This document shows, in pieces, positions 14,432 to 26,628 of a stretch of 64,000 bases of DNA (positions within the stretch are counted from its first letter, which is position 1; the number at the start of each line of letters is the position of its first letter). The notes beneath the pieces were generated by a model that was not told the DNA's origin, made no database searches, and was given only the letters and a program-made list of their open reading frames with translations. The DNA comes from Candidatus Poribacteria bacterium. Its GTDB lineage: Bacteria > Poribacteria > WGA-4E > UBA9662. Location: the NCBI GenBank assembly GCA_012963885.1, contig DTUY01000218.1:44264-108263 (forward strand), written 5' to 3'. Both the position numbers and the translations under genes were made by a program.

Positions 14432-15556
14432 ATGTCATTCATTATATCATTAATTATTCTATTATTTGGATTATTGGGTTCGTCTGTTGAGGCTTTTCCT
14501 GAGTTTGCTCATCTAGTTGATCAGGACTGTTCTTTTTGTCACCTGGATCCAAATGGCAGTGGGCCTCGGAACCCCGTTGGTCAGTTTTTTGACGAAAATG
14601 ACTTTGAATTCCCTGAGGATTTCGATCCTGAAACCTTTATGGCTAAAGCGAATCTTGTAACTCAAAGCCATTCCTTTACTGGAGATATCCGCGTTGCCTA
14701 CATAAAAACATCTCAAGTCAGTCATCGTGATCAGGAAACAGCTGGTTGTATCTCTTGCCATTCCTCTGTGGATACGTTCTTGTTGATGAAATCGGAAGTT
14801 GCTGTTCATGCTCGCGTATCGGATAAGGTTCAGGTTACCTTGTCTCATAATCTTGGGAACCCTTTTGACGCTTTCGGACGAGTTGAAATCATTTCTGATC
14901 GTCTGTGGATAAGAATTGGACAGTTCCAACTACCATTTGCTCTTCGTCAGGATGATCACAATATTCTAGTTAGGAATGGTTACGATTTGGGATCGAATAA
15001 ACGCGATCTTGGCCTTGAGATAATTGGTAACTACAAGAATCTGTTCTTCAATTCAGCTGTTTTCAACGGAAACCGTAACACACTAGCTGATCGAAATCAG
15101 CATAAAGGTCTTTTAACAACCATTGGAGGTGAATTTACTTTCATCCGAGGTGGTATTTCTCATTTGCTTGATAAGCTTGAGGTTCGGGGGGAAGCAATTT
15201 CTGCTGCTTTCCTAATAGCTAATATTAGTAAATTGTCAGTTGAGCTTGAATGTGATTTTAAAGCCCAAAATGGATTCAAAAGTCTCGTTTCCGCTGGCTA
15301 TTATGTGGGAGCTAAATATCGTTTGACGCCTGGATTTTCAGTCTCAGGGCGTTATGAAGCATTTGATCCGGATGGAAGAGTCAAAGGGGATTTAGAACAG
15401 CGGATCATAACCTTTGCTCGGTACAGATTTGCCAAGAATGCATCATTTGAAATCTATTATTGGGGAAACATTGAAAATAATAACAGGGATGATAACAAAA
15501 ATCGGCGACTGAACGGTGTGGATCAAGTGATTTTAATGTCAAGCTTCTGGTTTTGA
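14432..15556 (+). CDS. Outer-membrane porin-like protein with two c-type haem motifs
   Basis: A 374-residue exported protein. A signal peptide ends near residue 22. Two haem c attachment motifs follow: CSFCH near residue 33 and CISCH near residue 107. From about residue 120 the sequence becomes a run of alternating beta strands with polar turns, many ending in aromatic residues, and the last residue is Phe (SSFWF), the usual signature of an outer-membrane beta-barrel. The combination suggests a barrel carrying a two-haem N-terminal domain in the periplasm, perhaps for electron transfer across or at the outer membrane. The family is not recognised. No strong ribosome-binding site precedes the ATG. 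The DUF547 lipoprotein gene follows after 27 bases and may be co-transcribed. Confidence 0.7.
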   Translation: MSFIISLIILLFGLLGSSVEAFPEFAHLVDQDCSFCHLDPNGSGPRNPVGQFFDENDFEFPEDFDPETFMAKANLVTQSHSFTGDIRVAYIKTSQVSHRDQETAGCISCHSSVDTFLLMKSEVAVHARVSDKVQVTLSHNLGNPFDAFGRVEIISDRLWIRIGQFQLPFALRQDDHNILVRNGYDLGSNKRDLGLEIIGNYKNLFFNSAVFNGNRNTLADRNQHKGLLTTIGGEFTFIRGGISHLLDKLEVRGEAISAAFLIANISKLSVELECDFKAQNGFKSLVSAGYYVGAKYRLTPGFSVSGRYEAFDPDGRVKGDLEQRIITFARYRFAKNASFEIYYWGNIENNNRDDNKNRRLNGVDQVILMSSFWF

Positions 15557-15583
15557 TGTGGATTGGTAACTTGAATTCGTTGC

Positions 15584-16471
15584 ATGAATCGGATAAGAAA
15601 TAGGTTGACTGCAAGGCAGATGCTGAACTGGACAAGAATCAATATATTGTTAGTAATCACTATCGTCTTAGGGGGATGTATATTCAGCGGTTGCAAAAGT
15701 AGGGATTTAAAGTCTGATCAACTTTACCAACAAACCGATGTGAGCTTTGAAAGCAAAGCGGATGCTTACCAATCGTATGATGAGGTATTACAAACCTATG
15801 TGGATTCAAGTGGCCGTGTCGATTACAATAACCTAGGCCAAAACCCACTTCAATTGAACAATTTCATAGGTTTTCTCGCAAAGGTAAGTCCGGAAAATCA
15901 TCCTGAGTTATTCCCAACTCAAAATGATAAAAAGGCCTACTGGATCAATGCTTACAATGCTTTAATGATGAAGTCTGTTATTGATAATCCTGATATTACC
16001 AGTGTTAATCAGATAAGTTGGGGAAAAGGGATATTTTGGAGAACTAAATTCATAGTTGGGGGAAAAGAGCGTACTTTGCACCAGATTGAAAATGGTATCC
16101 TACGTAAAAGGTACAAGGATCCACGAATCCATTTTGCTATAAATTGTGCGTCTAACAGCTGTCCTCCGCCAGGCAATCAAATTCTGTCGGGCGACAGTTT
16201 GGATGAACAACTCAATTACAAATTGCAACAATTTATTCGGAATTCATCCAACGTTTTTGTGAGCCATGACACAAAGGAGATAAAATTATCCAGAATTTTC
16301 AAATGGTACAAGAGTGACTTTACTGCAAATGGAATGTCCTTAAAAGAATATGTGCTGCAATCCTTACTTGATATTCCTGATCGGAAAAGGAAAACTGTCC
16401 TTCAGGATTATAAAGTGGGTTATTTTAAGTATGACTGGGGTCTAAATGGGATGACGCTTGATAAACCGTAG
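15584..16471 (+). CDS. DUF547 lipoprotein
   Basis: A 295-residue protein with an N-terminal membrane segment and a lipobox-like Cys (VLGGC or FSGC, residues about 28-37), so it is probably anchored in the envelope. The rest is the DUF547 domain: KKAYWINAYNALMMKSVID, then GKERTLHQIENGILR, DPRIHFAINCASNSCPPP and FKWYKSDF. The conserved N-C-A-S-x-S-C-P-P motif is intact. The biochemical function of DUF547 is not established; the conserved Cys and His suggest a catalytic role. It lies just downstream of the haem-porin gene. Confidence 0.85.
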   Translation: MNRIRNRLTARQMLNWTRINILLVITIVLGGCIFSGCKSRDLKSDQLYQQTDVSFESKADAYQSYDEVLQTYVDSSGRVDYNNLGQNPLQLNNFIGFLAKVSPENHPELFPTQNDKKAYWINAYNALMMKSVIDNPDITSVNQISWGKGIFWRTKFIVGGKERTLHQIENGILRKRYKDPRIHFAINCASNSCPPPGNQILSGDSLDEQLNYKLQQFIRNSSNVFVSHDTKEIKLSRIFKWYKSDFTANGMSLKEYVLQSLLDIPDRKRKTVLQDYKVGYFKYDWGLNGMTLDKP

Positions 16472-24020: not shown

Positions 24021-25085
24021 CTAAGTTCCTCGTGGATATGCACCTAAAACCTTGAGAAACAGGCATCGATCAGTTATTTCCTTAAGAGCGATTTGTACGT
24101 TTGGATCCTCTGTATGCGCATCAAGATCAGCAAAAAAGACATATTCCCACGGTTTGTGTTGTGATGGAAACGAATCTATTTTGCTCATATTGATTTGATT
24201 TGATTCCAAAATGTTGAGGATTTGGCATAACGCACCTACTTCATCATTTATGCCGAAAAGAATTGATGTACGATCATTCCCTAATTTTTGCGCGGATTGG
24301 TTTCCAATAACCAAGAATCTGGTGATGTTGTTTGGATTATCCATAATTGAATTTGCAACAATAGGGACATCATAAATCTCACTGGCCAAGTTGCTGGCGA
24401 TTGCAGCAGATGCGGGTTCTTTACTGGCAATCTCAGCGGCAACAGATGTGCTTGCAACCTCGATTTGTTCGATGTTAGACAGGTTCTGATGTAACCATCG
24501 CCTGCATTGTGCAAAAGATTGGGGATGTGAATAGATTTTCGAGATGTTCTTCAGGTCTGACTGAGCAAGTAAATGATGCCTAATTGGAAGTAACCGCTCA
24601 GAGCAAATATGGAGTGGGGAGTGCAAAAACATTTCCAGAACATCTCGAACAGTACCGTAGGTGGAATTTTCAATAGCCACAACACCATAGTCTGCACGGT
24701 GCGATTCTACTTCAGCAAAAATATCCGTTTGAGGAACAATCGGTATGAATTCAGCTGATAATCCAAAGTGTTCTAAACTGGCTGTATGGCCGTGACTGCC
24801 AATCGGGCCAAGGTAGGCAACTTGTATTTTTTTTTCTAGCGATCTACAGGCGGAAATAATCTCGGTGAAAATCTTTGCTAGAGGTTTTTCTGGGAACTGA
24901 TCGCAGTTTATCGATTTCAGTCGATCTATAATTTGTTTTTCACGATGCGGCGCATAAACACTAGTTTTTCCGGTTTCTTCCTTCAGTTTCCCAACTTTTA
25001 TTGCTAACTTCGAACGCTCGTGCAATAATGACAGGATCTGTTTATCGATTTCATCGATTTCAGCGCGGCAATCTGTTAGATCCAA
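24021..25085 (-). CDS. pheA: Bifunctional chorismate mutase/prephenate dehydratase (P-protein)
   Basis: The 354-residue protein makes phenylpyruvate from chorismate in phenylalanine biosynthesis. Residues 1-90 are an AroQ-type chorismate mutase (IDEIDKQILSLLHERSKLAI). Residues about 95-270 are prephenate dehydratase (VAYLGPIGSHGHTASLEHFG, then VVAIENSTYGTVRDVLEMF, and the T-R-F motif in NITRFLVIG). The rest is an ACT domain that normally senses phenylalanine (GALCQILNILESNQINMSKI); the usual ESRP motif is DSFPSQ here. The start is a TTG with GGAG about 10 bases upstream. It is the last gene of a leftward run and starts 49 bases after the DUF5069 gene. Confidence 0.95.
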   Translation of the reverse strand: MDLTDCRAEIDEIDKQILSLLHERSKLAIKVGKLKEETGKTSVYAPHREKQIIDRLKSINCDQFPEKPLAKIFTEIISACRSLEKKIQVAYLGPIGSHGHTASLEHFGLSAEFIPIVPQTDIFAEVESHRADYGVVAIENSTYGTVRDVLEMFLHSPLHICSERLLPIRHHLLAQSDLKNISKIYSHPQSFAQCRRWLHQNLSNIEQIEVASTSVAAEIASKEPASAAIASNLASEIYDVPIVANSIMDNPNNITRFLVIGNQSAQKLGNDRTSILFGINDEVGALCQILNILESNQINMSKIDSFPSQHKPWEYVFFADLDAHTEDPNVQIALKEITDRCLFLKVLGAYPRGT

Positions 25086-25134: not shown

Positions 25135-25380
25135 CTAATCTCTGAGGGATCTGATTGCAGTGATCATGTCTTCGTCCGATGGATTATCCTGCACGATTTC
25201 AGTGAATTTATCAGCTTTCATCTTAAGTTCCTCCAGGAACTTTTGATCAGCTGGTCAGGGGTAGACATAATCCCCAAGTGTACCTTCAATTTTTGCACGC
25301 GCCTTATCGGTAATCCGTGCAAGCCACGGAATATTGCCTATTACTATATCGCGATGACGTGGTTTCCAATCGAGTCCCAT
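25135..25380 (-). CDS. DUF5069 protein, candidate selenoprotein (in-frame TGA at codon 42)
   Basis: ATG at 25380 is preceded by GAGG at a good distance. The frame reads MGLDWKPRHRDIVIGN, IPWLARITDKARAKIEG, TLGDYVYP, then TGA (25255-25257), then PADQKFLEELKMKADKFTE, IVQDNPSDEDMITAIRSLRD and TAG. DUF5069 proteins as I know them carry Y-x-Y-x-C-P-x-D-Q-x-F at this place, so the TGA sits exactly at the conserved cysteine and the frame continues in the family pattern on both sides. A perfect hairpin follows 12 bases after the TGA. TGA is a normal stop elsewhere in the window, so selenocysteine is the natural reading; a nonsense mutation is the alternative. The gene is 21 bases after a glutaredoxin-thioredoxin reductase gene. 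A reinitiation site at Met54 (GGAGG 8 bases upstream) is possible. The role of DUF5069 is unknown; a redox role is inferred. The product would be 81 residues. Confidence 0.7.
25225..25242 (-). promoter_or_regulatory. Candidate bacterial SECIS hairpin
   Basis: On the coding strand AAGTTCC, loop TGGA, GGAACTT form a perfect 7-bp stem. The loop starts 19 bases after the TGA, inside the 16-37 range of the published bacterial SECIS model, and has a G in its second position as the model asks. The same bases carry GGAGG before Met54, so part of the pairing could be coincidental with a ribosome-binding site. Confidence 0.6.
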
Positions 25381-25401
25381 ATTCTACCTCGCTATTGTTA
25401 C

Positions 25402-26628
25402 CTACCCTGGGTAGGCTCTATTTTCAAGTTCAGCAACGAATTTTTCTGCCATAATGCCGGCAGCGGCTCCCGCGCCGGCAGCTGTGATCGCTTGCCGAAA
25501 CACATGATCATGAACATCGCCAGCGGCGAAAACGCCTTCAATGTTTGTCTGTTGCTTTTCATCAACAAGGATGTACCCTTGGTCGTTTAGGTCAATAACC
25601 CTTTTGAATAATTCGGTATTTGGTATATGGCCGACGAAAATGAATACCCCGTCAATCGGAAACATCTCCTTTTCATCGGTTTTTATGTTTCTCAGTAGCG
25701 TTCCGGTTACTTTTTGCTCCTCACCTTGGATCTCGTCGACAACAGTATCCCAGATGAATTTAATTTTATCATTCTTAAAAGCCCTTTCCTGCATGATTTG
25801 GCTAGCACGTAGCTGGTCACGGCGATGAACGATGATAACCTCCGAGGCGTATTTTGTCAGGAAAATTCCCTCTTCCAACGCTGCATCACCACCACCGACA
25901 ACAATCAACCTCTGATCTTGAAAGAAAAAACCGTCGCAAGTGGCGCAATAAGAAACACCTCGTCCCCCATATTCCTTTTCACCAGGAATATCAAGAGTAC
26001 GCGGTGAGGCTCCGGTGCATATTACGATTGTTTTCGCCGAATACTGATTGTCATAAGTCTTGACAGAAAATGGATGACTGTTGAAGTCAACTTCAGTAGC
26101 ATATTCAAATCGAGTTTCTGTTCCAAACCTTTCTGCTTGTTCCTTAAGCCCATTTACGAACTCACCTGCTTGATGACCGAAATACCCTGGGTAATTTTCC
26201 AGATCAAGTGTCAGTGAAAGTTGGCCACCAAGTGCGTCACCTACCAACAGAAGCGGTTCCAGCATGGCTCGCGATGTGTAGACTCCTGCGGCGTATCCAG
26301 CCGTGCCACCGCCTATGATAATTACATTCCGTTCTTCGATTGTGTTGCCATTTTTTGCTACATCATTATCTTCTTCCTTTAACAACTTGTCCAATTCTCC
26401 TGACCTGGCTAACTCGGTTAAATTATCATCATCGCCTATATGCTGATCGTCAATGAAAATTTGTGGGACATCACGTCTACCCGTAAGTTCTTCAATATGA
26501 TCACGCATCTCGGAATCGCCATGGATATTTATCTCTTCGTACTCGATTTTCTTGCTTTCTAGAATTCGCTTTGCAACATCGCAATATGAACAAAAGTCAG
26601 TTGTGTAAACTTTAACTCGTGGCATCAT
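25402..26628 (-). CDS. Glutaredoxin-thioredoxin reductase fusion
   Basis: A 408-residue flavoenzyme. Residues 1-85 are a glutaredoxin with C-S-Y-C at 13-16 and the R-D-V-P-Q-I-F-I-D glutathione-site motif. A short linker leads to a low-molecular-weight thioredoxin reductase (about 100-408): FAD motif IIGGGTAGYAAG, NADPH motif VVGGGDAALEEG, redox pair C-A-T-C at 228-231, and the C-terminal GVFAAGDVHDH. It should pass electrons from NADPH through FAD and the C-A-T-C pair to its own glutaredoxin domain or to a thioredoxin. Two ATG codons are adjacent (26628 and 26625) after AGGGAGGG, with tight spacing. It is followed in the same transcript by the DUF5069 gene. Confidence 0.92.
   Translation of the reverse strand: MMPRVKVYTTDFCSYCDVAKRILESKKIEYEEINIHGDSEMRDHIEELTGRRDVPQIFIDDQHIGDDDNLTELARSGELDKLLKEEDNDVAKNGNTIEERNVIIIGGGTAGYAAGVYTSRAMLEPLLLVGDALGGQLSLTLDLENYPGYFGHQAGEFVNGLKEQAERFGTETRFEYATEVDFNSHPFSVKTYDNQYSAKTIVICTGASPRTLDIPGEKEYGGRGVSYCATCDGFFFQDQRLIVVGGGDAALEEGIFLTKYASEVIIVHRRDQLRASQIMQERAFKNDKIKFIWDTVVDEIQGEEQKVTGTLLRNIKTDEKEMFPIDGVFIFVGHIPNTELFKRVIDLNDQGYILVDEKQQTNIEGVFAAGDVHDHVFRQAITAAGAGAAAGIMAEKFVAELENRAYPG

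Follow-up and report, generated by a model that had tools for sequence, protein, structure and literature searches.

Does the single in-frame TGA of a short DUF5069 gene end that gene, or is it translated as selenocysteine (Sec)? The question is raised by the reverse strand at 25135..25380 of the window, as we call the whole 64,000-nucleotide stretch of the Candidatus Poribacteria contig DTUY01000218.1 analysed here. Based on comparative genomics, it is highly probable that the gene encodes a selenoprotein. The phenomenon is larger than an earlier, sequence-only reading of the window had supposed: the same TGA is found in 111 genomes from three phyla.

The in-frame TGA and its protein context

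The gene and the signals that define its reading frame are the following.

25135..25380, reverse strand: predicted short DUF5069 selenoprotein gene, 81 amino acids with Sec42; assigned from the sequence, the PF16798 match and orthologues with TGA in the same column
25255..25257, reverse strand: in-frame TGA, assigned as Sec at residue 42 within the motif Y-V-Y-P-U-P-A-D; TGA conserved in orthologues
25387..25390, reverse strand: GAGG, ribosome-binding-site-like, before the ATG; read from the sequence

The frame proceeds from ATG (25380-25378) through 40 codons to TGA (25257-25255), and onward through 39 codons to TAG (25137-25135), with the TGA as the sole interruption of 81 codons. These coordinates, re-read from the sequence, agree with the original description of a single TGA in a frame with its own ATG and GAGG. 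Among the eight DUF5069 matches of the window's own genome, only this gene has an internal stop. The read-through product matches Pfam DUF5069 (PF16798) at 55.8 bits (cut-off 27); no NCBIfam model (June 2026) matches it. The Pfam match spans about positions 4-74/75 of the 133-position model and does not reach full domain length. Given that the short-form relatives also comprise about 80 amino acids, the gene is understood as a member of a short subfamily, not a truncated copy.

The TGA had been proposed to fall on a conserved Cys of DUF5069. This stands for the short-form homologues, in which Cys at the Sec column is invariant among the sequences compared, but not for the tandem-domain paralogues of the same genome, which have Ser or Gly there; some single-domain long forms and the structure 3OMD have Cys as well. 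The paralogues in question (L002-L006; G000:C175, C414) contain two or three DUF5069 domains, and their sequences suggest a different function. Within a diverse set of 19 proteins, W19, Y38, Y40, P41, C/U42 and D45 are invariant.

The AlphaFold2 model of the protein (mean predicted local distance difference test score 76.6) is helical, with a helix beginning at residue 43 directly after Sec. Its top Foldseek match in the PDB is 3OMD from Leptospirillum rubarum (template modelling score 0.79, E 1.1e-3, 41% identity over 73 columns), and a profile search retrieves the same entry at 1.3e-16, with its Cys (YTYNCPLDQ) aligned to the Sec column. The window protein and 3OMD are thus alike in sequence and fold, and both are without assigned function; compared to 3OMD and PF16798, the window protein is short (positions 4-75 of 133) and has Sec in place of Cys.

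Were the TGA a true stop, the product would be a 41-amino-acid peptide, and the downstream part would be a remnant or a separate small open reading frame (ORF) starting from Met54. A GGAGG positioned 8 nt before ATG54 is consistent with such a start, and TGA does terminate other open frames of the window. However, the codons after the TGA are conserved across phyla, the relatives with Cys read through the site, and the ratio of nonsynonymous to synonymous polymorphism (0.13 before the TGA, 0.20 after it) indicates purifying selection on both sides. The internal start, which the sequence-only reading had itself noted as a caveat, was rejected: most relatives have Ile (ATA/ATT/ATC) or some other residue at codon 54, and Met is not conserved there. 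A true stop is considered extremely unlikely.

Recurrence of the TGA across phyla

The read-through protein was searched against 98 genomes (the window's own and its relatives), yielding 79 orthologous loci. The codon at the Sec column is TGA in 73 of them (72 poribacterial genomes), TGC in five and TGT in one. Search at phylum level revealed 36 Latescibacterota genomes with TGA and seven without; in Chloroflexota, TGA is present in 3 of the 37 genomes having the gene. Of 399 Bacillota genomes, five carry short DUF5069, all without TGA, and a plasmid search with the window gene gave no match. The other DUF5069 genes with TGA in this position, which it had been suggested to look for, are thus found in abundance, the total reaching 112 loci in 111 genomes (72 Poribacteria, 36 Latescibacterota, 3 Chloroflexota). 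When the fetched loci were read individually, each TGA fell on the U of the motif Y-x-[YF]-P-U-[P/G/A]-x-D. Cys occupies the column in those TGA-less relatives that were read; they represent several phyla and include six class-level relatives from Poribacteria.

A sequencing or assembly error converting TGC or TGT into TGA might be suspected from the fragmentation of the window genome (420 contigs). Occurrence of the same TGA in 111 genomes, including the one-contig assemblies G012, G015 and G041, together with a co-conserved hairpin, leaves such an error a vanishingly small probability.

In a protein tree of 69 rows, built from a short alignment, the Sec/Cys label requires at least four changes. 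The three Sec rows from Chloroflexota adjoin a Cys row of the same phylum, and this position, together with a hairpin unrelated to that of the other phyla (see below), suggests that Cys gave way to Sec separately in Chloroflexota. One record titled Gemmatimonas phototrophica (L254) clusters with Latescibacterota by gene tree and by genome grouping alike, and its title may be mislabelled.

The hairpin and the selenocysteine machinery

Downstream of the UGA lies a candidate selenocysteine insertion sequence (SECIS), which comprises a compact core and a longer predicted fold.

25225..25242, reverse strand: SECIS hairpin AAGUUCC-UGGA-GGAACUU, 7-bp stem with UGGA apical loop; assigned from sequence, folding and conservation
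25212..25253, reverse strand: extended predicted SECIS structure including lower stem segments; minimum free energy (MFE) fold of the 46 nt from the UGA

Positions and folding agree with the sequence-only account of a perfect 7-bp stem carrying a UGGA loop, with 12 nt from the UGA to the stem and 19 nt to the apical loop. The hairpin alone has a predicted energy of -7.7 kcal/mol, and for the 46 nt from the UGA onward the value is -15.0 kcal/mol (z -4.1), equalled by none of 200 shuffles; the lower part of the extended structure differs among relatives. The published bacterial SECIS model requires a loop of 3-9 nt, a stem of 4-16 bp, a spacing of 16-37 nt, a G within the first two loop positions and an MFE <= -7.5 (PMC13188914), and the window hairpin satisfies these constraints. 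An Rfam scan of the window gave no match at gathering thresholds.

The hairpin is retained in the TGA genes of Poribacteria and Latescibacterota. F48, L49, E50 and E51 are invariably encoded by TTC CTG GAG GAA in the 71 distinct TGA genes from Poribacteria. Leu has six codons, Phe and Glu two each. Synonymous variation is hence zero in the four hairpin codons, against an average of 1.1 bits for another 50 conserved columns, just one of which comes near zero. Among 96 distinct sequences from the two phyla, the loop is UGGA in all, and 91.7% of cells show pairing across the seven positions of the stem; shuffles give 79.8% (none of 1000 attains 91.7%), and slid versions of the stem 68% at most. 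The third pair, in the core of the stem, is G-C in 82 sequences, C-G in 13 and A-U in one, and individual cases maintain the stem although both of its strands have changed. At L040, a locus from Poribacteria, an insertion of one complete codon precedes the stem, which is re-formed as GUAUUCC/GGAAUAC. The six poribacterial Cys genes have similar residues at the site but do not form the hairpin, and the TGA genes of Chloroflexota have an unrelated one, GCUC-GGU-GAGC or GAGU. These comparisons indicate that the hairpin is under selection as RNA.

The machinery that the sequence-only reading had proposed to look for is complete in the window's own genome: selA (515 bits), selB (359 bits), selD (359 bits) and, adjoining selB, a tRNA-Sec (selC, 70 bits) with anticodon UCA (TCA). 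The selD gene of this genome (L131, G000:C46:18580-19500) has one internal TGA of its own, in the context T-C-G-U-A-A-K, followed by a comparable SECIS-like stem with a GGUC loop. Its product looks like a selenoprotein too, and the gene serves as an internal positive control. For the orthologous short form, nothing that had been named at the outset as speaking against Sec (missing machinery, another residue at the column, TGC or TGT behind the TGA) was found.

A suppressor or variant tRNA might insert Cys or Trp at the UGA, instead of Sec: Cys is what relatives have at this column, and tRNA-based UGA recoding exists elsewhere. A SelB-type hairpin conserved at the synonymous level would, however, be needless for a suppressor, and tRNA-Sec with UCA anticodon is present along with selA, selB and selD. 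This alternative is considered very unlikely.

Several observations qualify or weigh against the selenoprotein assignment and its structural match. A comparable stem arises in about 1.9% of random synonymous recodings, so that the hairpin alone is not overwhelming; conservation lifts it above chance, almost all of the 96 distinct sequences having retained it. Neither the number of pair types nor that of pairs changed on both sides is higher than in the shuffles. Compensatory change is therefore statistically weak, and it is the synonymous freeze and the percentage of paired cells that carry the argument. Among the 72 TGA genomes of Poribacteria, selB was found in 68 and not in the remaining four (73-84% complete); it is above cut-off in 35 of 36 Latescibacterota TGA genomes and below it in one, and is found in two of three Chloroflexota TGA genomes. 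Genome incompleteness is the likely cause of these gaps. Genomes with the Cys form mostly carry selB as well, and thus selB presence alone does not discriminate. The named TGA-bearing genomes are metagenome-assembled, and the Foldseek E value for 3OMD is slightly above 0.001.

The selenoprotein assignment involves SelB with Sec-tRNA, which would bind the hairpin at 25242-25225, whereupon the UGA at 25257-25255 would be decoded as Sec to give the 81-amino-acid short DUF5069 protein, with Sec replacing the Cys of the family. There exist analogies to known bacterial selenoproteins (SelD, formate dehydrogenase), which likewise combine a UGA with a hairpin (G in the loop) 16-37 nt downstream, Cys homologues and sel genes. 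The window protein is distinct from these in being all-helical in its model, not thioredoxin-like, and in having no UxxC/CxxU motif.

Gene neighbourhood, proposed role and significance

Two genes flank the DUF5069 gene in the window.

25402..26628, reverse strand: glutaredoxin-thioredoxin reductase fusion, 408 amino acids, upstream, 21 nt before the DUF5069 start; Pfam/NCBIfam matches
24021..25085, reverse strand: chorismate mutase/prephenate dehydratase-like gene (pheA), downstream; named by sequence resemblance

Elsewhere in the window, at 14432-16471, two ORFs of the same frame (374 and 295 amino acids) are separated by a short gap with an in-frame TGA; they are probably adjacent genes and not a case of recoding.

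The fusion protein has its glutaredoxin domain N-terminal to the thioredoxin reductase. It adjoins DUF5069 only in the window and in two genomes of the same taxonomic family. From this arrangement it is a possible reducing partner within that family, and a general partnership was rejected since the adjacency is confined to it. In 56 named loci, with the Sec form as well as the Cys form, pheA comes after DUF5069 in the same strand and order. Additional genes, resembling aminotransferase, prephenate dehydrogenase and EPSP synthase (named by eye), follow in the Cys group of Poribacteria. For one group of Latescibacterota, the gene that comes next has an NAD-binding oxidoreductase domain. A gene directly upstream of DUF5069 (L277:1619-2989, L301:1909-2943) is common to Latescibacterota, Chloroflexota and others; it is kinase-like by eye, and Pfam at 1e-5 gave no match for it. 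The conserved neighbours (pheA; NAD-binding oxidoreductase) do not settle the role.

The protein is probably a small all-helical redox or nucleophilic-selenol protein, with its Sec just before a predicted helix, within the motif Y-P-U-[P/G]-x-D. Having no Cys of its own, it would need an outside thiol system, for example glutathione, glutaredoxin or thioredoxin reductase, for resolution of the oxidised Sec. From Sec chemistry and the neighbours, we give about an even chance to a one-Sec redox protein resolved in this way. Against a redox role, it must be said that Sec chemistry and neighbours differing between phyla are what it leans on, and that the strongest synteny, pheA, does not involve a redox gene. 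The protein could instead be a selenoprotein whose Sec has a non-redox function, such as the binding of a metal or ligand, and this may be connected with the synthesis of aromatic amino acids; the alternative concerns the role only. The pheA synteny in Poribacteria, shared by Sec and Cys forms, is consistent with it, as is the lack of a second Cys/Sec and of a thioredoxin fold. Most selenoproteins, however, are thought to serve redox functions (PMC13188914), and the neighbours include the glutaredoxin-thioredoxin reductase fusion (one family) and the NAD-binding oxidoreductase (one Latescibacterota group). We regard a non-redox Sec as possible, if rather doubtful.

Short DUF5069 appears to constitute a new selenoprotein family, as the sequence-only reading had ventured. 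DUF5069 is absent from an inventory of May 2026 that covers 119 prokaryotic selenoprotein families/subfamilies (PMC13188914), and the searchable open-access papers (subscription papers and preprints being outside their scope) contain no mention of DUF5069 or PF16798, nor of Poribacteria together with 'selenoprotein'. Priority is not certain given this literature scope; a groundwater selenoprotein survey of metagenome-assembled genomes (ref. 66 of PMC13188914) reportedly mentions unspecified novel candidates. With confidence a little short of even, we suggest the whole as an unreported family of at least three phyla, with Cys-to-Sec exchange at least twice independently, in which a non-thioredoxin single-Sec protein would serve a new biochemical role, possibly in aromatic amino acid synthesis.

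Lastly, the finding has importance for lineages whose selenoproteins seem undescribed in the searchable papers: the family occurs in almost every sampled genome of one poribacterial order and in the majority of those Latescibacterota that possess short DUF5069. A gene caller treating TGA as stop would cut these genes at codon 42, so that they are easily missed. DUF5069 has a solved structure and no assigned function. The repeated exchange of Cys for Sec marks one residue of the family as its likely reactive centre and makes the function directly testable.
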